Source: Nitrosovibrio sp. Nv17
GTDB taxonomy: Bacteria; Pseudomonadota; Gammaproteobacteria; Burkholderiales; Nitrosomonadaceae
NCBI RefSeq assembly: GCF_900119085.1
Contig: NZ_FPIQ01000011.1
Coordinates: 1-64,000 of the forward strand
Reading direction: 5' to 3'
DNA length: 64,000 nt
The position numbers and the translations under genes are program-made. Below are positions 5,286 to 33,492 of this stretch, one piece after another; the stretch's first letter is position 1, and every line of letters begins with the position of its first letter. The notes beneath the pieces are model-generated. The model was not told the DNA's origin. It was given only the letters and a program-made list of their open reading frames with translations, and searched no databases.

Positions 5286-6740
5286 TCAGAACCTCGGCAG
5301 CCCCGGAAACCTGTCCGTGCCCCCGTGTACGTGCATCGCGCCGTGCTCGGCGCAGCGGCGCAGAGTGGGGACGGCCTTGCCGGGATTCAGCAGTGCATCC
5401 GGGTCGAAAGCTGCCTTGACCGCGTGGAACGCTTCCAGCTCCCCCGGCCCGAACTGGGCGCACATCTGGTCGATCTTTTCAATGCCCACGCCGTGCTCCC
5501 CGGTGATGGTACCCCCGACGCGCACGCACATCTCCAGGATCCTCGCGCCGAAGCGCTCGGTCCGCTCCAGTTCGCCGGGCCGGCTGGCGTCATAGAGGAT
5601 GAGCGGATGCAGGTTGCCGTCACCGGCGTGAAAGACATTCATGCAGCGCAGGCCGTATTCGGCGGAAAGCGCCTCGATTCCGCCCAGTACCTCCGCCAGC
5701 CGGTTGCGGGGAATGGTGCCATCCATGCAGTAGTAATCGGGAGAAATGCGTCCCGCCGCCGGAAATGCCGCCTTGCGGCCGGCCCAGAACCTGAGCCGCT
5801 CCGCCTCGCTGCCGGACAGCCTGACATCGACCGCGCCGCTCATCTGCATGATCCGCTCGACCCGGTGCATCTCGTCCTCGACCTCCTCCGCCGCGCCGTC
5901 CGCCTCGCACAGCAGGATCGCGGCGGCGGTGAGGTCGTAGCCGGCGTGCGCATAGGCTTCCACGGCGCGCGCAGCGACGCCGTCCATCATTTCCATCCCG
6001 GCCGGGATGATGCCCGCGCCGATCACGCTTGCCACCGCATCCGCCGCCTTGCGGATGTCGTCGAACGCAGCCATCGCCACCCGCGCGCATTCCGGCCGGG
6101 GAATGAGCTTCACCGTCACCTCGGTGACCACTCCCAGCATGCCTTCGCTGCCCGTCATGAGGGCCAGCAGATCGTAGCCGGGAGAATCAAGACACGCTCC
6201 GCCGACCTCCAGAATCGCGCCCGTCATGGTCAGCACCCGCAACCCGAGGATGTTGTGCACCGTGAGCCCATACTTCAGGCAGTGTACGCCCCCGGAATTC
6301 TCCGCCACGTTGCCGCCGATGGAGCAGGCGATCTGCGAGGAGGGATCCGGAGCATAGTGGAGGCCGTATGGCGCGACCGCCTCGCTGATGGCGAGATTGC
6401 GCACCCCTGGCTGCACGCGGGCGGTGCGCGCTATCGGATCCACTTCGAGAATGCGCTTCAGCCGGGCAAGCGACAGCAGTACCCCCTGCTCATGGGGCAG
6501 CGCCCCTCCCGACAGGCCGGTACCCGCGCCGCGCGCCACGACCGGAATCTTCCGTGCATGACAGATCCGGAGTACCGCCGCCACCTCCGCCTCATCCTGC
6601 GGCAATGCCACGGCCATGGGCAGCTGCCGGTACGCCGACAGTCCATCGCACTCGTAGGGCCTCAGATCCTCGATCTCATGCAGCACCGCGTCGCAGGGCA
6701 ACACCGCTCGCAGGCTGGCAACCAGCTCGGCAAGGCTCAT
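5286..6740 (-). CDS. glcD: Glycolate oxidase catalytic subunit GlcD
   Basis: GlcD is the catalytic FAD subunit that oxidises glycolate to glyoxylate. The protein has 484 residues. The FAD-binding PCMH motif 'GAGTGLSGGA' sits at residues 71-80, followed by 'DPSSQIACSIGGNVAENSGG'. The C-terminal FAD-oxidase domain includes 'HAGDGNLHPLI' and 'TGEHGVGIEK', both diagnostic of the GlcD/D-lactate dehydrogenase family. The operon context with glcE and glcF decides between glycolate and lactate. Its ATG overlaps the glxR stop by four bases (ATGA), so translation is coupled. In an autotroph its likely substrate is glycolate derived from RuBisCO oxygenation; that role is inferred. Confidence 0.96.
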   Translation of the reverse strand: MSLAELVASLRAVLPCDAVLHEIEDLRPYECDGLSAYRQLPMAVALPQDEAEVAAVLRICHARKIPVVARGAGTGLSGGALPHEQGVLLSLARLKRILEVDPIARTARVQPGVRNLAISEAVAPYGLHYAPDPSSQIACSIGGNVAENSGGVHCLKYGLTVHNILGLRVLTMTGAILEVGGACLDSPGYDLLALMTGSEGMLGVVTEVTVKLIPRPECARVAMAAFDDIRKAADAVASVIGAGIIPAGMEMMDGVAARAVEAYAHAGYDLTAAAILLCEADGAAEEVEDEMHRVERIMQMSGAVDVRLSGSEAERLRFWAGRKAAFPAAGRISPDYYCMDGTIPRNRLAEVLGGIEALSAEYGLRCMNVFHAGDGNLHPLILYDASRPGELERTERFGARILEMCVRVGGTITGEHGVGIEKIDQMCAQFGPGELEAFHAVKAAFDPDALLNPGKAVPTLRRCAEHGAMHVHGGTDRFPGLPRF

Positions 6741-7633
6741 GGCATCGGGGACGGCGTGCCGATTTCATGGCCTGCCTCCCTCTCCAGCGCCTTCACCAGC
6801 GCCGAGCTGTCCCACCCTCCGCCGCCACAGGCCATGCAGGCGTCGAGCAGCGCCTGGGTGGCGGCCGTGTTGGGAAGATTGAGACCCAGTGCGCGCGCGT
6901 CCGAAAGCGCGAGCGCGAGATCCTTGCGATGCAGTTCGATCCGGAAACCGGGATCGAACGCACGCCGGAGCATGCGCTCACCGTGCACCTCGAGGACGCG
7001 CGATGCGGCAAATCCCCCGAGCAGGGCCTCGCGCACGCGGGCAGGATCGACGCCTGCCCGGGAGGCAAACAGGAGCGCCTCGCCGACCGCCTCGATGGTG
7101 AGCACGACCACGATCTGGTTGGCAAGCTTGCAGGTCTGACCGGCACCGCAGTCGCCGATCCGGGTGATGCGGCTGCCCAGCAACGCCAGAATCGGCCTCA
7201 TCCGCTCGAACACTTCCGGTGGGGCACCTACCATGATGGTCAGGGTGGCGTTCCGTGCGCCGATGTCACCCCCCGATACCGGTGCATCGGCGTAACTGCA
7301 GCCGTACCGGCCGATTCTCGCCGCGAATTCCCGGGTCGCACCGGGCGAAACGGTGCTCATGTCCACCACCGTCTTGCCGGGACTCAGGCCATGCGCCACG
7401 CCCTCCTCGCCGAACAGCACGCGCTCCACATCCGCAGTGTCGGGCAGCATGGTCACGATCAGATCGGCGCGACGCGCCACCTCTACAGGCGAGGCGCAGG
7501 CCCGGCCGCCATGCAACAGCAGCGTCTCCGGCACGCCGCTGCGGCTATGCAGGAACAACGTGTGCCCGCCCGCGATGAGGTGTTCCGCCATGGGCCTGCC
7601 CATGGTGCCCAGCCCGATGAAGCCGATATCCAT
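6737..7633 (-). CDS. glxR: 2-hydroxy-3-oxopropionate (tartronate semialdehyde) reductase
   Basis: This enzyme reduces tartronate semialdehyde to D-glycerate with NAD(P)H. The 298-residue beta-hydroxyacid dehydrogenase has the N-terminal Rossmann motif 'GFIGLGTMG' (residues 4-12), the substrate motif 'DAPVSGG' (116-122) and the catalytic lysine K169 in 'GQTCKLANQ'. 3-hydroxyisobutyrate dehydrogenase is the main alternative on sequence alone; the glcDEF neighbours favour GlxR. It is the first gene of the operon and overlaps glcD by four bases. Glyoxylate carboligase, the step needed between GlcDEF and GlxR, is not in this window. Confidence 0.87.
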   Translation of the reverse strand: MDIGFIGLGTMGRPMAEHLIAGGHTLFLHSRSGVPETLLLHGGRACASPVEVARRADLIVTMLPDTADVERVLFGEEGVAHGLSPGKTVVDMSTVSPGATREFAARIGRYGCSYADAPVSGGDIGARNATLTIMVGAPPEVFERMRPILALLGSRITRIGDCGAGQTCKLANQIVVVLTIEAVGEALLFASRAGVDPARVREALLGGFAASRVLEVHGERMLRRAFDPGFRIELHRKDLALALSDARALGLNLPNTAATQALLDACMACGGGGWDSSALVKALEREAGHEIGTPSPMP

Positions 7634-12467: not shown

Positions 12468-13336
12468 GGTATCGTACCCGTCAGATAGTCCAGCGCGATG
12501 CCGGCGAATACCGCCGCGCCCACCCAGTTGTTGTGCAGAAAGGCCCGGAAGCAGCGCTCCCGCTCGCGATTGCGGATCAGACGGTACTGGTAGGCTGCCA
12601 ATCCCGCCGCGAGCGCCAGCCCCGCGTAGTACGCGACCCCCAGCCCCCGGATCGAGCCCACGGCCACCATGATTCCCAGGAAAACGGCATGGCACGCCAT
12701 CACCCCCGCCACGTCGAAGCGTCCGAGGGTGATGGCGGACGTCCGGATGCCGATCCTGAGATCGTCCGCCTTGTCCACCATGGCGTACTCGGTATCGTAG
12801 GCGATCACCCACAGCAGATTGGCCGCCATCAGCATCCAGGCGAGAAACGGCACCGATCCCGTCAGCGCCGCAAAAGCCATGGGAATGCCGAAACCGAAGG
12901 CAACGCCCAGGTAAGCCTGCGGCATGGCGAAGAAGCGCTTGGTGTAGGGGTAGCTTGCGGCCAGGAACAGGGCACATGCCGAAAGCTCGAGTGTCAATCG
13001 GTTCAGCGGCAGGATCAGGATGAACGCGCACAGGCTCAGTCCCGCCGCCAGCAACAGCGCCTCGGTGGTGCCGACCGCGCCCACCGCCAGCGGCCGGGCG
13101 CGGGTGCGCTCGACGTGCCCGTCGAAGTCCCGATCGGCATAGTCGTTGATGATGCATCCGGCAGAGCGCATCAGCACCGTGCCCGCCAGGAATATCGCCA
13201 GTACACTCATGTCGGGCACGCCGTCGGCTGCAAGCCACAGTCCCCACAACGTCGGCCACAGCAGCAGCAGTATGCCGATGGGCTTGTCCAGCCGCATCAG
13301 CTTCTCGTAGTGTCCCAGGCGCTGCGCCAGCGTCAT
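12464..13336 (-). CDS. ubiA: 4-hydroxybenzoate polyprenyltransferase UbiA
   Basis: UbiA is the membrane prenyltransferase that joins the polyprenyl tail to 4-hydroxybenzoate. The 290-residue protein (ATG 13336, '[19 protein letters not shown]') has about eight hydrophobic helices and the Mg2+-diphosphate motif '[20 protein letters not shown]', followed later by '[12 protein letters not shown]', the second Asp-rich motif. The start overlaps the ubiC stop by four bases and the stop overlaps ubiD by four, so the three genes are translationally coupled. Confidence 0.96.
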
Positions 13337-13881
13337 GATGTCAGGCCCAGTATGGCGGGGAGAAATACTTCGGTGACGAGTATGGACTGTCCCCGCAGAG
13401 CGAACAGGGAGCGACGCGCCCACAGGCCCGAAGGGCGTACCACCAGCTCCCGGCAGGCGCGGTGGAAAAGCGGGTGGGCTGCGGTCAGCTTCCTGAACCG
13501 CAGCGGCGTACGCTCGATCACGGGATTGGAGAACAGCACCGTGCCGAGCGAACGGCTGCCGAGCCCGTGCAGCCTGCACCATGCGCCGCGAAGATCGCGC
13601 CTCGCCACTACCGAGTGCGCGAACACCACCGGCGTCTCGCCGCAGTAGAGGTAGACTTCCCGGATCAGCGCCAACTCGTTGCGGCGCAGGCGCATGACGT
13701 CACGTTCGTCCTCGCACGCCACGCCCAGCGACTGGAACACGGGCCTGACGTGAAAATCCCCGCGGCAGCGCTGCTGGATGAGCCGCGTGAGCGAGCCGCG
13801 GTTCTGCAACCAGCCGCGAGCGGCGGCAGAGCGCGGCAGGGGATCAGGATGCCAGCTGTACGGGAAGGCAGCATTCATCAA
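13333..13881 (-). CDS. ubiC: Chorismate pyruvate-lyase UbiC
   Basis: UbiC converts chorismate to 4-hydroxybenzoate plus pyruvate, the first committed step to ubiquinone. The product has 182 residues. Recognisable parts are '[18 protein letters not shown]', '[28 protein letters not shown]' with the conserved arginine and glutamate region, and '[18 protein letters not shown]'. It leads the ubiCAD unit. Chorismate drawn off here also matters for folate: the window carries a CADD-type enzyme that would not need chorismate. Confidence 0.93.
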
Positions 13882-25611: not shown

Positions 25612-26412
25612 ATGACCGTGTTCGTAAAATCGCCGCAGGATATCGACAGGATGCGCATTGCCGGCAGGCTTGCCTCCGAGGTGCTGGACTACATCACCCC
25701 TTTCGTGAAGCCGGGGATCACGACCAACGAGCTCGATGCGCTGTGCCACGACTACATGGTCAACGTGCAGCGTACCATCCCGGCTCCGCTCAACTACGCT
25801 CCACCCGGATACACGCCTTACCCGAAATCCATCTGCACGTCTGTCAACCATCAGGTATGCCACGGGATACCGGGGGAAAAGCGGCTGAAGGCAGGAGATA
25901 TCGTCAATATCGACGTCACCGTCATCAAGGATGGCTACCACGGCGACACCAGCCGGATGTACTGCGTGGGGGAGCCGGGCATCCAGGCCAGACGGCTGTG
26001 CGAGATCACCTATGAATCGATGTGGCGCGGGATCGAGGAGGTCAGAGCGGGCAAGCACCTGGGAGATATCGGCCATGCCATCCAGCGCTTTGCCGAAGGG
26101 CAGGGATGCAGCGTGGTCAGGGAATTCTGCGGCCACGGCATCGGCACGGCGTTCCACGAAGATCCGCAGGTGCTCCACTACGGACGCGCGCGCACCGGAC
26201 TGAGGCTAGAAGCGGGAATGATCTTCACGATAGAGCCGATGATCAATGCGGGAAAGGCGCCGGTGCGCCAGATGGCCGATGGCTGGACCATCGTGACCAA
26301 GGATCACAGCCTCTCGGCGCAGTGGGAACATACCGTCCTGGTCACCGAAGACGGATACGAGGTATTGACGCTATCCGATGGAGCCCCGCCAAAGCCGATA
26401 TTCCGCTCCTGA
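25612..26412 (+). CDS. map: Type I methionine aminopeptidase
   Basis: Map removes the N-terminal methionine from new proteins using a two-metal centre. The 266-residue protein has the metal ligands in 'VNIDVTVIKDGYHGDTSRM' (Asp, Asp), 'REFCGHGIGTAFHEDP' (His), 'FTIEPMIN' (Glu) and 'AQWEHTVLV' (Glu). The substrate-binding segment 'TSVNHQVCHGIP' is present. Possible -10 TAGAAT is at 25588-25593. glnD follows after five bases. Confidence 0.97.
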   Translation: MTVFVKSPQDIDRMRIAGRLASEVLDYITPFVKPGITTNELDALCHDYMVNVQRTIPAPLNYAPPGYTPYPKSICTSVNHQVCHGIPGEKRLKAGDIVNIDVTVIKDGYHGDTSRMYCVGEPGIQARRLCEITYESMWRGIEEVRAGKHLGDIGHAIQRFAEGQGCSVVREFCGHGIGTAFHEDPQVLHYGRARTGLRLEAGMIFTIEPMINAGKAPVRQMADGWTIVTKDHSLSAQWEHTVLVTEDGYEVLTLSDGAPPKPIFRS

Positions 26413-26417
26413 ACTCC

Positions 26418-29063
26418 ATGAAGCCTGCCCGAGCCGGCTCCTTGCGACGCCCTCTCGACGTCGAGGCGGGCAGGCAGGCCCTGATGGAGGGGCGGGAGTC
26501 GCTGCGCCAGCGCTACCGTCGCAGCGGAAACGGCGCAGCCCTGCTGCGCGACCACTGCCGGCTGGTGGACGGCATTCTGCGCCAGGCATGGCAGGACCTG
26601 TCCATGCCGGCATCCATCGCACTGCTGGCAGTAGGCGGCTATGGGCGCCGCCAGCTCTACCCCTGCTCCGATATCGATCTGCTGGTGCTGCTTCCCACCC
26701 GGCAGCGTGCCGACGCGGATGACGCACTCCGATCGCGCCTGGAGCACTGGGTCAGGATACTGTGGGACATGGGCCTGGACATCGGGCACGGCGTACGCAC
26801 ACTGGCCGAGTGCCGCGAAGACGCGGGGGGAGACATCACCGTGCAGACAAGTCTGCTGGAAGCACGTCAGCTCGCGGGGGCCCGGTCCCTGTACGCGGAA
26901 TTCACATCCCTCATGCAGGGGATGCTCGAACCGCGCGCATTCTTCATCGCCAAGCAACTGGAGCAGCAGCAGCGTCACGGCAGATATCACGATGCCACGC
27001 AGAATCTCGAACCCAACCTGAAGGAAGCGCCTGGGGGCCTGCGGGATCTGCAGAACATCCTGTGGATCGCGCGCGCGGCAAGGCTTGGCGCCTCCTGGCA
27101 GGAGCTCGCCAGGGGTGGCTTCGTCACGCAGCGAGAGGCACGCCTCGCCCGGCGGCACCAGTCGATCCTGCAGGACCTGCGGATCCGGCTGCACTACCTT
27201 GCGGGAAGGCGCGAGGACCGGCTGCTGTTCGACTACCAGGCCACGCTCGCCACCGAACTCGACATCGCCGATGCGCTGCCGCGCCGCGCCAGCGAACTGC
27301 TGATGCAGCGCTACTACCGTGCCGCCCGGATGGTGACACAGATCAACACCCTGCTGCTGCCGGCCTTGCGCACGCGCATCTTCCCCATCACGGACATTCC
27401 ACCAGTCATCCTCGATGCACGCTTCCAGCAGCGCGGCGAGTTGCTGGAGATCCGCGACGAAGGCGTATTCCGGCGGGATCCGGGTGCCATGCTGGAAAGC
27501 GTCCTGCTGCTGCAGCGGCACCCCCGGCTGCGGGCGCGCAGTCCGGCAATGCTGAGGGCGATGTGGCGCGCAGCCCCGCTCATCGACGCTTCATTCCGGC
27601 GCGATCCGCGCCATCGTGCCCTGTTCATGGATATCCTGCGCCAACCGCGCGGGCTGACACGCGAATTGCGGCTGTTGAACCGCTACGGCATCCTTGGCCG
27701 CTACATCCCGGCCTTCGGGCGCATCGTCGGCCAGATGCAGCACGACCTGTTCCACGTCTATACGGTGGACGAACATATTCTGATGGTGATCAGGAACCTG
27801 CGCCGCTTCATGGAGCCGGAATTCGCGCACGAGTTCCCGCTGTGCAGTCAGCTCATCGGCGAATTCGAGCGCCCCGAGGTGCTGTTCCTCGCCGGACTGT
27901 TTCACGACATCGCCAAGGGACGTAACGGCGACCATTCCCGGCTGGGCAGCGTCGACGCCGGGCGCTTCTGCAGCCGGCATGGCCTGTCGGCAGCGGATAC
28001 CGGGCTGGTGGCCTGGCTGGTGGAACATCATCTGGCCATGTCCATCACGGCCCAGAAGAAGGACATCTCGGATCCCGGAGTGATCGCGGATTTCGCTAGA
28101 CATGTCGACAGCAAGCGCCGCCTCGTGGCATTGTATCTGCTTACGGTCGCGGACATCCGAGGCACCAGCCCCAAGGTGTGGAACAGCTGGAAAGGCAAGT
28201 TGCTGGAGGATCTGCTATGGGCGACGCACCGGCACCTGAGCGGCGCACCCGATCATGAGTCCGACATGTCGGGCCACAAGGGCAGGGTACACGAACTGCT
28301 GGGTCGATGCGGCATTCCCGCCGACACACGCGAGCGCATCTGGTCCACCTTCGATCGCACCTACTGGTTGCTGCACGATGCCGAGGAAATCGTCTGGCAC
28401 ATGGCACACCTGAAACCCCATCTGATCCGGGCCGAGCCTGGAGCTATCGTGGTCAGGGCACGCATTGTCCCCAGGGACACGGGGATCGGGGTACTGGTCT
28501 ACGCTCCGGACCAGAAAGACCTGTTCGCCCGTATCTGCAGCTTTTTCGACAGCCAGGACTACAACATCGTCCAGGCGCGCATCCATACGACCCGCGACGG
28601 CCACGCGCTCGACAGCTTCCTGGTGCTGGATCCCTTCGATGCCATGGAACGCCAGCCCGACGCAACTCATGTTCTGGCATGCGAACTGGCGCTGCGTCTG
28701 GTACGGCAGTCGCCGCTCAAGCCTCCCCCGCAGGCACGCCTGAGCCGACACCTCAAGCATTTTCCGATCATGCCGGAGGTCGATATCGAGCCCGATGAAA
28801 ACGGCTCGTATCATATCCTGTCGATCGTGGCAGGAGATCAGCCGGGATTGCTGACGCGCATCGCCCTCGTCCTGGCCGACTGCGGCATCGATGTGCATGG
28901 CGCACGGATCAATACGCTGGGAGAGCGTGCCGAGGACGTGTTCCTGATCACCGGAGACGCGCTCCACGATACACCAGCCCTGCTGCGCCTCGAGACCGCG
29001 CTGCTGGCGGTACTGCAGACGCCCCAGGGCGCCACCCACACGAGCCTGCCCGTATCCCGCTGA
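26418..29063 (+). CDS. glnD: Bifunctional uridylyltransferase/uridylyl-removing enzyme GlnD
   Basis: GlnD senses glutamine and uridylylates or deuridylylates PII proteins, controlling nitrogen assimilation. From ATG 26418 it is 881 residues, the usual size. Domains in order are the nucleotidyltransferase ('VGGYGRRQLYPCSDIDLLVL'), a helical linker, the HD hydrolase ('LAGLFHDIAKGRNGDHSRLG') and two ACT domains ('VYAPDQKDLFARICSFF' and 'IVAGDQPGLLTRIALVLAD'). All key motifs are intact. In an ammonia oxidiser nitrogen control would have an unusual setting, since ammonia is both energy and nitrogen source. Confidence 0.97.
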   Translation: MKPARAGSLRRPLDVEAGRQALMEGRESLRQRYRRSGNGAALLRDHCRLVDGILRQAWQDLSMPASIALLAVGGYGRRQLYPCSDIDLLVLLPTRQRADADDALRSRLEHWVRILWDMGLDIGHGVRTLAECREDAGGDITVQTSLLEARQLAGARSLYAEFTSLMQGMLEPRAFFIAKQLEQQQRHGRYHDATQNLEPNLKEAPGGLRDLQNILWIARAARLGASWQELARGGFVTQREARLARRHQSILQDLRIRLHYLAGRREDRLLFDYQATLATELDIADALPRRASELLMQRYYRAARMVTQINTLLLPALRTRIFPITDIPPVILDARFQQRGELLEIRDEGVFRRDPGAMLESVLLLQRHPRLRARSPAMLRAMWRAAPLIDASFRRDPRHRALFMDILRQPRGLTRELRLLNRYGILGRYIPAFGRIVGQMQHDLFHVYTVDEHILMVIRNLRRFMEPEFAHEFPLCSQLIGEFERPEVLFLAGLFHDIAKGRNGDHSRLGSVDAGRFCSRHGLSAADTGLVAWLVEHHLAMSITAQKKDISDPGVIADFARHVDSKRRLVALYLLTVADIRGTSPKVWNSWKGKLLEDLLWATHRHLSGAPDHESDMSGHKGRVHELLGRCGIPADTRERIWSTFDRTYWLLHDAEEIVWHMAHLKPHLIRAEPGAIVVRARIVPRDTGIGVLVYAPDQKDLFARICSFFDSQDYNIVQARIHTTRDGHALDSFLVLDPFDAMERQPDATHVLACELALRLVRQSPLKPPPQARLSRHLKHFPIMPEVDIEPDENGSYHILSIVAGDQPGLLTRIALVLADCGIDVHGARINTLGERAEDVFLITGDALHDTPALLRLETALLAVLQTPQGATHTSLPVSR

Positions 29064-29125: not shown

Positions 29126-31438
29126 TCATGCCGGCGAAGCCCCCGTTCCGGAATCGGAGGTACCGAGGCGGGCCCGAAGCGCACGCGCGGCATCCACCAT
29201 GCGCTCCAGCGCCGTGACCACCTCCGGCCAGTTGCGGGTCTTCAGGCCGCAGTCGGGATTGACCCACAACTGCCGGGGATCGATCACCTGGCAGGCCCTG
29301 TCGAGCAGTTCCAGCATCTCGCCGGTCTCGGGGATGCGCGGCGAGTGGATGTCGTATACGCCGGGCCCGATCTCGTTGGGATACTTGAACTGCCCGAATC
29401 CATCCAGCAGTTCCATGCGGGAGCGCGAGGTCTCGATGGTGATGACGTCGGCCTCCATGTCGGCGATCGCGGGAAGGATGTCGTTGAATTCGGAATAGCA
29501 CATGTGGGTATGTATCTGCGTATCGTCGCGCACACCGGAACTGGAGACGCGGAAGGCTCTCACCGCCCACTCCAGGTACGTGCTCCAGTCGGTTCTTTTA
29601 AGCGGCAGGCCCTCGCGGAACGCCGGCTCGTCGATCTGGATGATGCCAATACCGGCACGCTCGAGATCCACGACCTCGTCGCGTATGGCCAGCGCGAGTT
29701 GCAGCGCCGTGGCGGAGCGCGGCTGATCGTCGCGCACGAACGACCACATCAGCATGGTGATGGGTCCGGTCAGCATGCCCTTCACCGGCTTTTCGGTCAG
29801 GCTCTGCGCATATCGAATCCATTCCACCGTCATGGGTTCGGGACGATAGACGTCACCATACAGAATGGGGGGCTTGACGCAGCGGGAACCGTAACTCTGC
29901 ACCCAGCCGTTCTCGGTAAAGACATAACCATAGAGCTGCTCGCCGAAATACTCCACCATGTCATTGCGCTCGGCCTCTCCATGGACGAACACGTCCAGCC
30001 CGATCTCTTCCTGCTTGCCGATCGCCAGGCGAATCTCCGAGCGCATCGCTTCCAGATATTCCAGGTTCCCGATCTCGCCTTTCCTGAACGCGGCACGTGC
30101 CTGGCGAATCTCCGGCGTCTGCGGAAATGAGCCGATGGTGGTGGTGGGCAGGTCAGGCAGCCGGAAGCGCTGCTGCTGCTTCTCCCGCCGGATGGCAAAA
30201 GGGCTCGCGCGCCGGGCATCGTCCGGAGTGAGGCGCTGCAGGCGCGCCTGGGTGGCGGGATTGTGGATACGGGGAGACTCGCGACGCTCCCGCCTGGCCC
30301 CGTCGGCGGCGTCCAGCTCCGCCCGGATGGCATCCTCGCCCTGATTCAGGCCACGCCCGAGTATCGAGACTTCCCGCAGCTTCTGCACCGAGAAGGCAAG
30401 CCAGTCCCTGATCTCCGGCTCCAGGCGCGTCTCCAGGTCGAGGTCCACGGGACAATGCAGCAGCGAGCAGCTGGGCGCGACCCAGACCCGCCCGGCCAGC
30501 GACACCTGCGCGCGCACCAGCGTCGCCAGCACCTGCGAAAGATCGGCACGCCATACGTTGCGCCCGTCGATGACCCCCAGCGACAGCACCTTGTCGGCCG
30601 GATAGCCCTCCAGGAAGGCGTCTAGTTGATCTGGCGCCCTGCACAGGTCGATGTGCAGCCCTTCCACCGCGAGTTCCTTCAGGCGCCCGGCATGGGCACC
30701 GACGCCCTCGAAGTAGGTTGCAAGCAGCAGCTTCGGCCGGACGCTCCCCGTTTCGGAAAGCACGGCATAGGCCCGCTCCAGGCCCTCCAGCCAGTCGTCT
30801 TCCAGATCGAGCACCAGGCAGGGCTCGTCGATCTGTACCCATTCCACACCCAGGGCGGCGAGCCGGGCCAGGATGTCGCGGTAGACGGGCAGCACGGAAT
30901 CGAGCAGTCCTAGCCTGTCGAAACCGGGCTCGGTCTCCTTGCCGAGGTACAGGTAGGTCAGTGGGCCGATAAGCACCACCTTCGGCACGATACCCAGCGC
31001 CCTGGCTTCCGCCACCTCTTCGAAAAGCTGCTGGGATGCGATGCGGAACCGGGTATTCGCATCGAACTCGGGGACGATGTAGTGGTAGTTGGTGTCGAAC
31101 CACTTGGTCATCTCCATCGCCGGCTGGGCGGCGGTGCCGCGCGCCATGGCGAAGTACAGGCCCAGTCCGACCTCCTCCCCTCCTGCGCCGTAGCGCGCCG
31201 GCACGGCACCCAGCAGCGCCGTCATGTTCAGCATCTGGTCATAGAAGGCAAAATCGCCGACGGGAATCAGGTCGATTCCAGCTTCGCGCTGCACGCTCCA
31301 GTGGCGCTGGCGCAACGTGGCCGCCCTGTCCTTCAGTTCCTGCTCGTCGATATCACCGCGCCAGTGCGCTTCAAGCGCCTGTTTCAACTCGCGGCGTGCG
31401 CCGATGCGGGGAAAACCCAGATTATGTGTCAATGCCAT
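29126..31438 (-). CDS. metE: Cobalamin-independent methionine synthase MetE
   Basis: MetE transfers the methyl group of 5-methyltetrahydropteroyltriglutamate to homocysteine. From ATG 31438 (preceded by CGAGGAGC) it has 770 residues, the normal size, starting '[19 protein letters not shown]'. Zinc ligands are visible in '[10 protein letters not shown]' (His, Cys) and '[12 protein letters not shown]' (Cys), and the substrate Asp/Glu region is '[14 protein letters not shown]'. It is divergent from metR, with a MetR-type operator between them. Confidence 0.97.
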
Positions 31439-31561
31439 GATTGCTCCTCGTTTCCATGCGGGTGCGGCGTTGTGGAAAGCGGCCCAGCGGTCGTCGGGTT
31501 GCCGCCGGCGCACATTGTGTGGCAGACTAGACTATGAATCAAGTGAAACGTTCTGAAAAAA

Positions 31562-31582: not shown

Positions 31583-32497
31583 ATGCTTGAGCTGCGCCAC
31601 CTGCGCACGATCTCGGCCTTGCACGAAACCGGCAGCGTATCGCGCGCCGCCAGGCGCGTGCACCTGACCCAATCCGCTCTGTCGCACCAAATCAGGGTAC
31701 TGCAGGCGTACTACGGCCTGCCCATGATCCAGCGCCGGGGCCAGTCCATCGAGTTGACGGATGCGGGCAGGCAGCTGGCGGCGCTGGCCGGAAAGGTACT
31801 GGAAGAAATCCAGGAAACCGAGCGGGATATCGCCCGCCTCTCGCAGCAGGCATGCGGAAGCCTGCGCATCGTGCTGGAGTGCCATACCTGTTTCGACTGG
31901 CTGATGCCGCTCATGGACGCCTTTCGGCGGAACTGGCCGGAGGTGGAATTGGATCTGGTGTCCGGGTTCCATGCCGACCCCCTCAAGCTGCTGGAGGATG
32001 GCTCCGCGGATGTGGTGATCGGCTCGGAACACGGGAGCAGGCGCGATATCGTGCATCACCCGCTGTTCCGTTTCGAAATCCTGGCGGTATTGGCGCCCGA
32101 GCATCCCCTGGGCGCGAAACGCAGCCTGCATGCCGCAGACTTCGCCGACACGACCCTGATCACCTATCCGGTGCCGGAAGATCGCATCGACCTGATCTCG
32201 AAGGTGCTGAAACCCGCAGGAATCCGGCTGCCACGACGCACGGCGGAACTGACGGTTGCAATTCTGCAGCTGGTGGCAAGCCGTCGCGGCATCGCCGCAC
32301 TGCCCAGCTGGGGCCTCAAGAACTACGTGGAGCACGACTACGTGATTGCGCGGCGTATCGGCACAAGCGGACTGTGGAGCGACCTGTACGCGTCGACTCC
32401 GAGCAAGACGTCGACCTGTCCCTACATGCGCGACTTTCTCAGTACCGCGCGAAGTACCTGCTTTGCCACGCTGGAGGGCATCGTCCCGTTGAAATGA
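31583..32497 (+). CDS. metR: LysR-type regulator MetR
   Basis: MetR activates metE and related genes with homocysteine as coeffector. The 304-residue LysR-type protein has the N-terminal winged HTH ('SVSRAARRVHLTQSALSHQIRVLQ') and a periplasmic-binding-like effector domain with 'LECHTCFDWLMPLMDAFR', characteristic of MetR. It is divergent from metE, and an operator abuts its start codon. The ATG at 31583 fits the conserved N-terminus 'MLELRHLRTISALHE'. Confidence 0.94.
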   Translation: MLELRHLRTISALHETGSVSRAARRVHLTQSALSHQIRVLQAYYGLPMIQRRGQSIELTDAGRQLAALAGKVLEEIQETERDIARLSQQACGSLRIVLECHTCFDWLMPLMDAFRRNWPEVELDLVSGFHADPLKLLEDGSADVVIGSEHGSRRDIVHHPLFRFEILAVLAPEHPLGAKRSLHAADFADTTLITYPVPEDRIDLISKVLKPAGIRLPRRTAELTVAILQLVASRRGIAALPSWGLKNYVEHDYVIARRIGTSGLWSDLYASTPSKTSTCPYMRDFLSTARSTCFATLEGIVPLK

Positions 32498-32585: not shown

Positions 32586-33332
32586 TCAGTGCAGGGTGAC
32601 GGGTACGTCTTCCTCGCAGGCCAGTTCTGCGCAATGGGTCTCGTAGATGCCATCCAGAAACCCCCACAGCGCGGCACATGCGCGCTCGGTCGCCGAGAGC
32701 ACCTGTGCCTCTTTCTCGGGTGTATCCACGAATCGCTCGATCAGCGCCCACTCTGCCGCGGAGTGGTGCACGTCCGCCTCCTGGTGCACCGTGAAAAATT
32801 CGTAGCCGGCGGGATCGTCCATTCCATAGAATCGTGACAATCCTTCTATCTTCACCGCAGCAATCGACGGCACCTGGGATTCGAAGGCGTACATCGCCGC
32901 CAGGCCAGCGTAGAACGGCTCGTTCAGGCAGATGTCACGATACGTCGACACCAGCCGCGCCGTTCCCGGGAGCACCGCAGCCTCCGCCAGGCTTCGGTCG
33001 CTCGATCCCAGGGACAATGCAAACGTCCGCCACAGCGCGGGATGATTCTTCTCGCCGTGCTCCTCGCTGATCAGGTTCTTGAGAACCTCCTGCCGCACGC
33101 TGATGTCCCCGCTGCGCGCTGCGCTGTGGTGGTGCGGCGTGTTGTAGTGCACCGCGCTCAGATAGGTCGGTTCCGCCAGGACATTATGGAAATATTGCTC
33201 CGCATAATGGCGCAGATGATCCCGGGTCAGCCTCCCCTCCGTCCATGCCACGTAAAAAGGATGCTTCAGAAGATGGCGGGCAGAGATGATGGCGTCTATC
33301 CTTTGCTTGAGCGATGTATCGTTGGTTGTCAT
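32586..33332 (-). CDS. CADD-family p-aminobenzoate synthase (self-sacrificing, TenA/PqqC fold)
   Basis: This 248-residue heme-oxygenase-like diiron protein resembles Chlamydia CADD and its Nitrosomonas europaea homologue, which supply p-aminobenzoate for folate without PabA/B/C. The tyrosine that CADD uses as its own substrate is Tyr27 ('HPFYVAW'), and the lysine equivalent to CADD Lys152 is Lys161 ('AAVKIEGL'). Metal ligands align as Glu90, His97, Glu151, His183, Asp187 and His190, with a nine-residue insertion (Thr65-Gly75 region) relative to CADD. Alignment is from memory. It stands alone as a single gene on the minus strand, with the divergent YqaA-type gene upstream. It is unlikely to be TenA or PqqC because those lack the paired catalytic Tyr/Lys. 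Confidence 0.88.
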   Translation of the reverse strand: MTTNDTSLKQRIDAIISARHLLKHPFYVAWTEGRLTRDHLRHYAEQYFHNVLAEPTYLSAVHYNTPHHHSAARSGDISVRQEVLKNLISEEHGEKNHPALWRTFALSLGSSDRSLAEAAVLPGTARLVSTYRDICLNEPFYAGLAAMYAFESQVPSIAAVKIEGLSRFYGMDDPAGYEFFTVHQEADVHHSAAEWALIERFVDTPEKEAQVLSATERACAALWGFLDGIYETHCAELACEEDVPVTLH

Positions 33333-33492
33333 GGTCTCCTCTCTCGGACAGGGATGGGTAATCAGGCATCATATCATCGCGAAATGATGCCGCCAAGTCA
33401 AATTCCTGCAGGTGCGCCCGCAGCGGGAGTATCTGGGGAAACCGCAGGATTAGAAGCTAAACTTGTGCTTTTTCCATTCCCCGATCACGCGC

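Follow-up and report, generated by a model that had tools for sequence, protein, structure and literature searches.

The window, a 64,000-nucleotide stretch of the Nitrosovibrio sp. Nv17 genome, contains a gene whose product is, judged from its sequence, almost certainly the Nitrosospira-lineage ortholog of NePabS and CADD, a self-sacrificing synthase of p-aminobenzoate (pABA). The gene occupies positions 32586-33332 of the minus strand and encodes 248 amino acids. The initial annotation had placed the protein here without naming its strand: on the minus strand the frame is intact, with 248 codons from ATG to stop, while the plus strand contains a stop in the same register. The protein matches the CADD family model TIGR04305 at 284.9 bits (3.7e-85; curated cut-off 200 bits) and the Pfam families Haem_oxygenas_2 (1.8e-34) and TENA_THI-4 (1.8e-19). 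Its nearest solved chains are 9pj4_A, a "4-aminobenzoate synthase" (1.1e-126), and those of CT610/CADD, 1rcw_A (2.4e-46) and 8va9_A (6.8e-46). The family scores lie far beyond chance. Compared with the N. europaea ATCC 25978 protein (locus L155), 175 of 246 aligned positions are identical (71.1%). Directly before the ATG there is a GA-rich ribosome-binding-like stretch, gagagaggagacc, and farther upstream two overlapping sigma-70-like matches; this putative upstream region (33333-33401, minus strand) is drawn from consensus matches only. The window was also scanned for known RNA elements, and their presence was rejected, as no Rfam family matched at gathering scores.

The residues on which the chemistry would depend are conserved. 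Alignments, counted from the ATG at 33332, identify Tyr27 (codon 33252-33254, minus strand) as the predicted sacrificial tyrosine, corresponding to Tyr25 of NePabS and Tyr27 of CADD, and Lys161 (codon 32850-32852, minus strand) as the predicted amine donor, corresponding to Lys159 of NePabS and Lys152 of CADD. Glu90, His97, Glu151, His183, Asp187 and His190 align with both proteins, at the residues that we take to be the six metal ligands of CADD. In the pairwise alignment, all 15 positions checked are the same in the window and N. europaea proteins: Y27/Y25, Y43/Y41, Y47/Y45, W101/W99, F150/F148, F179/F177, K161/K159, the six ligands and two further Glu. The remaining residues probed in PMC11965152 agree as well. 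According to PMC11965152, the CADD-type metal site consists of three His and three carboxylates, Tyr41 of NePabS is essential, and both carboxylate oxygens of the NePabS product come from O2. The same source attributes the Fe/Fe preference of NePabS to the Phe pair F148/F177, and describes CADD as having Tyr141/Tyr170 at these positions and a Mn/Fe cofactor. Because the window protein has Phe at both positions (Phe150 and Phe179), its cofactor is predicted to be Fe/Fe, in contrast to the Mn/Fe of Chlamydia.

There is a detailed precedent for how the protein might work: NePabS, 71% identical, has been shown to synthesize pABA by sacrificing Tyr25 and Lys159, with a preference for Fe (PMC11965152), and by analogy the window protein very probably does the same in its host. 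The dimetal site formed by the six ligands, predicted to be Fe/Fe, would activate O2, and a radical would be passed via aromatic residues, of which Tyr47 and Trp101 are candidates, to Tyr27. The Tyr27 side chain would then be cleaved off the backbone, leaving Gly behind, and would become pABA with nitrogen supplied by the Lys161 side chain. Each protein would yield at most one pABA, which FolP would use for folate; the in vitro yield of NePabS is below 0.1 pABA per monomer (PMC11965152).

The predicted structure agrees with this assignment. The AlphaFold2 model of the window protein has a mean pLDDT of 89.4, and the top Foldseek matches in the PDB are the CADD entries 8vag, 1rcw and 8va9 (rmsd 1.3-2.6 A, 37% identity), followed by PqqC, UndA, BesC, TenA and others at 11-21% identity; 9pj4 is not among the best 50 PDB matches listed. 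Against 8va9 and 8vag the rmsd is 1.3-1.4 A and the TM score 0.94-0.95 by target length, values that describe a model and no solved structure. The modelled protein has a heme-oxygenase-like fold that superposes on CADD, at 1.3 A for the closest overlay. Thus the family cut-off, the residue alignment and the fold all agree with the earlier claim of a CADD-type synthase keeping Tyr27, Lys161 and six metal ligands. Over residues 61-100 the pLDDT, taken by tens, is 73, 62, 74 and 78, and because this low-confidence stretch extends to residue 100, Glu90 and His97 are placed with less certainty than the remainder of the model.

Within that stretch falls an insertion of nine residues after His62 relative to CADD, which the alignment bears out as first described. 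The approximately nine inserted codons (63-71; 33120-33146, minus strand; the gap edges depend on the aligner) are modelled as a loop of low confidence (pLDDT 73 over residues 61-70, 62 over 71-80), so that structure prediction places the insertion but in an uncertain region. The initial annotation had called it distinctive, which does not hold: the insertion is present in every CADD-type copy of at least 180 aa from the family and in two genomes of another family, and PMC11965152 describes for NePabS a disordered loop of ~10 residues, absent from CADD and proposed as the site for an activating factor. Since it is shared by relatives and already published for NePabS, the loop is neither new nor special to the window protein, and the idea of a private feature was rejected.

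How far does the fold itself speak for the chemistry? A PqqC-/TenA-like enzyme, or another heme-oxygenase-like oxidase whose substrate is a separate molecule, would belong to the same superfamily, and could point to the TENA_THI-4 match (1.8e-19) and to a PqqC score of 47.3 bits. A survey of 170 related open frames of at least 180 aa, in which the window protein appears twice and several genes are repeated, contains 27 frames from other heme-oxygenase-like groups in which Tyr27 and Lys161 are both missing; the chemistry is thus not proved by the fold. However, the window protein falls far short of the PqqC cut-off (240) and likewise of the curated BesC cut-off, while it passes that of CADD, and it keeps the sacrificial residues and all ligands, unlike the look-alike groups. 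On the family scores a PqqC/TenA identity was rejected, and we consider an oxidase of this kind very improbable. A self-sacrificing pABA synthase remains the preferred reading, and 136 of the 170 frames share with it the loop and all 13 of the residues compared.

The other frames in the survey are few. Two of them, representing one G153 gene fetched twice, have Leu at 150, one is truncated, and four, from the same phylum outside the order, are loopless with Tyr150/Phe179. Phe150 accompanies the loop in the loop-bearing frames (with Leu in the one gene), an association between loop and Phe pair that is confounded by ancestry. The Leu for Phe at 150, beside the metal site, occurs in one of the two CADD copies of G153 (L078, 5736-6479), and the metal preference of this copy would not be predictable from the variants described in the NePabS paper. 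Another group (L009, L010 and L172-L175) scores ~95-101 bits on the CADD model and keeps the six ligands, with Ser at Tyr27 and Gln or Thr at Lys161; it is probably a different dimetal oxidase.

To place the enzyme in its pathway, we considered the whole genome, 2.84 Mb in 56 contigs and 99.83% complete, which has one CADD gene and a folP over cut-off. Its single pabB-family match is TrpE, which scores 564.3 bits on TIGR00564 (cut-off 517.7) and, on the pabB models, 288.6-290.1 bits, below the cut-off of 328.4. Of the two Aminotran_4 proteins, which both stay far under the pabC cut-offs, one is IlvE (over its own cut-off). The other is D-amino-acid-transaminase-like and reaches none of the curated cut-offs (its best match is PRK06680, 270 vs 320), and a possible lyase activity in it casts a small doubt on the missing pabC. 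The search for pabA, pabB and pabC proposed at the outset thus found a TrpG/PabA-type glutaminase (one over cut-off among four matches), and profile searches of the 99.83%-complete genome found neither a separate pabB nor a gene recognised as pabC. A classical pabABC was rejected for this genome, where the sole PabB-like protein is TrpE and no protein is assigned as PabC. Because there is no separate pabB and no recognised pabC while folP is kept, the CADD-type enzyme is very probably the only pABA source of the genome, where it would stand in for the absent pabB and pabC.

A different balance can be imagined, in which the enzyme makes pABA as a supplement only, and TrpE, TrpG and the D-amino-acid-transaminase-like protein together provide the classical route. 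The glutaminase is present, the transaminase-like protein has no firm classification, and a bifunctional TrpE may conceivably act for PabB. Yet no separate PabB exists beside the protein that exceeds the TrpE cut-off, 97 of the 100 genomes from the family have a CADD match, and ne1434 complements an E. coli delta-pabABC strain, as reported in the Introduction of PMC11965152. We accordingly give a merely supplementary role little credence, and continue to regard the CADD-type enzyme as very probably the only source.

Across the family, 94 of 100 genomes have a CADD gene that exceeds the cut-off, three more have CADD pieces only and three have no match, which supports the CADD route as the usual pABA route in the family. 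No family genome has pabB over cut-off (a single match occurs in each of 98) or pabC over cut-off (0/100). These cut-offs are strict, being passed by only 4 of 14 control genomes for pabB and 1 of 14 for pabC, so that the two zero counts alone do not prove absence; for the window's genome the absence claim therefore rests on the identity of each individual match, while for the other family genomes the single pabB matches enter as counts. In an order-level sample, 7 of 150 genomes exceed the CADD cut-off, including all 5 sampled from the family; the remaining two (G040 and G085; loci L085 and L086) belong to another family, carry loop-bearing CADD and have no pabB/trpE-like match at E 0.001. 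At L085, metK follows the CADD gene on the opposite strand. In a wider search of 398 genomes, 4 that belong to the same phylum and lie outside the order exceed the cut-off.

Two broader claims of the initial annotation need qualification. It had proposed folate synthesis independent of chorismate in a genome that still uses chorismate through ubiC. The chorismate lyase gene ubiC is present in the window (13333-13881, minus strand; Chor_lyase 1.5e-27), but tyrosine itself is made from chorismate, so the independence is stated too strongly and holds for the direct route only. It had also taken the family, known to it from Chlamydia and N. europaea, as support for assignment to the ammonia oxidisers. 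The family is wider, and occurs also in Wolbachia, Rickettsia, Chloroflexi and Sphingomonas (PMC11965152), which makes CADD membership alone weak evidence; better evidence comes from amo gene pieces at two contig ends of the genome (contigs C40 and C8; loci L176 and L177), which support an ammonia oxidiser. The position of these pieces at contig ends fits several near-identical amo copies collapsed in assembly.

The gene order in the window is hemA-prfA-prmC-grxD (minus), a VTT-domain-like gene (plus), the CADD-type gene (minus), metR (plus) and metE (minus). Here hemA and prfA were assigned by family search on a relative's locus (L068) and read by eye in the window, and the VTT-domain-like gene has a Pfam match under its cut-off. 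The convergent neighbour is a metR-like LysR regulator (31583-32497, plus strand), with PRK15421 MetR as its best match at 221.3 bits (cut-off 382 not reached), and metE encodes a B12-independent methionine synthase (29126-31513, minus strand; TIGR01371 1088.9 bits, cut-off 929.95). We surveyed the neighbours in 80 related loci, the best of 171; these are counts of loci, to which a few genomes contribute twice. The CADD-type gene has metE or metR nearby in 58 and glyA in 9, and among the 64 loci that extend 3 kb or more to either side of it, 49 have metE or metR and 15 have neither. At the N. europaea locus (L155), glyA, CADD, metR and metE stand in a row. MetE and GlyA are folate users, so the linkage fits a function in pABA supply.

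The same frequencies (58/80, 49/64 and, for glyA, 9/80) could instead reflect a second role of the protein in methionine or one-carbon metabolism, and CADD is said to moonlight in Chlamydia. But pABA supply to folate-using MetE and GlyA is enough to account for the linkage, both met genes are missing from 15 of the 64 assessable loci, and the window gene and metR are convergent and share no operon. A second role thus seems very improbable, and pABA supply is the explanation that we favor. In G232, a Dsr1-like anti-phage sirtuin frame (L075, 3-1628) lies a few kb from a CADD gene; it scores 704.9 bits (cut-off 1400) on the C-terminal part of the model, the frame being cut by the locus end.

Two CADD matches over cut-off occur in 8 of 100 family genomes, with an internal stop in one of the 16 matches. 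In G179, G181 and G189 (loci L068, L069 and L070), all three from the same genus as the window, the two copies are direct repeats flanking metR-metE, at 6029-6772 and 10243-10980 in L068. Nitrosospira sp. Nl5 is a named two-copy strain (L090). The core common to both repeats spans 695-775 bases and is 99.6-100% identical, and over the whole gene, with starts roughly set and the second G181 copy as cut beginning without ATG, identity is 96.9-99.5% within a genome and 82-92% between the three genomes. Each pair forms sisters in the tree, a pattern that either repeated duplication in place or an old duplication with gene conversion would explain. In G232 and G153, however, the copies lie on separate contigs, are not sisters (protein identity 210/238 and 221/240, respectively), and so argue against a general rule of sister twin copies. 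In G222 (L071, 4005-7589), a genome of the same family, both CADD copies stand to the same side of metE and enclose a full-length metR, and fragments resembling metR separate metE from the nearer copy; the arrangement looks like a duplicated CADD-metR unit in which one metR has decayed.

The window itself has only the one copy: beyond the gene, tblastn gave only weak matches (E 0.18 or worse), and a remnant second copy beside metE was rejected on these values. Past metE, the window has a gene (26022-29063) that shares ~70% identity with the one following the second copy in the relatives, which makes the locus otherwise like the twin-copy loci. In the tree the branch of the window CADD gene is long and adjoins the G179 pair (support 0.91), so a second copy may have been lost. 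As each enzyme molecule works once, pABA output is expected to follow protein copy number. One could therefore speculate that the near-identical repeats around metR-metE, homogenised by gene conversion, raise pABA supply by dosage and tie it to a major folate user, with the window as the single-copy form; we hold this to be unlikely, if conceivable.

The window gene is the expected ortholog, in the Nitrosospira lineage, of a biochemically characterised enzyme. Its interest is that a published chemistry, in which an enzyme spends itself to make a vitamin precursor, is extended to an ammonia oxidiser of this lineage; that chemistry was already shown in N. europaea and the new details are minor. 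The metR-metE linkage and the twin copies together offer a testable idea on how enough of a one-turnover enzyme might be supplied. A search of the open-licence PMC literature gave no paper on CADD with pABA and Nitrosospira; among the matches listed, the NePabS paper alone combines pABA synthase with Nitrosomonas, without "metE", and it is the only one for NE1434 or pabABC with Nitrosomonas. As the literature covered is open-licence PMC only, we claim no novelty for the linkage or the twin copies.

It is instructive to compare the window protein with the known systems. PqqC, BesC and UndA share the heme-oxygenase-like superfamily and fold, but are only 16-21% identical and act on separate substrates. 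The closest solved chain, 9pj4_A (E 1.1e-126), shares the loop and key residues and by eye is closer to locus L005 than to the N. europaea protein; its code is not found in the available part of the review PMC13108848. CADD (CT610) of C. trachomatis has the same fold (1.3 A to 8va9), Tyr27, the Lys152 counterpart and six ligands, but differs in its 37% identity in structural alignment, in lacking the nine-residue insertion, and in having Tyr141/Tyr170 and Mn/Fe where the window protein has Phe150/Phe179 and a predicted Fe/Fe site. CT610 has been connected with folate genes and did not substitute for folE (PMC1971073, which in the part available mentions neither Nitrosomonas nor metE). The nearest likeness is to NePabS (NE1434) of N. 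europaea: 71% identity, the same sacrificial Tyr and Lys, the same ligands, counterparts of Tyr41, Tyr45 and Trp99, the F148/F177 pair and the extra loop. Both loci have metR-metE beside the gene, and they differ on the other side, where N. europaea has glyA and the window has the VTT-domain-like gene and the grxD/prmC/prfA/hemA block.
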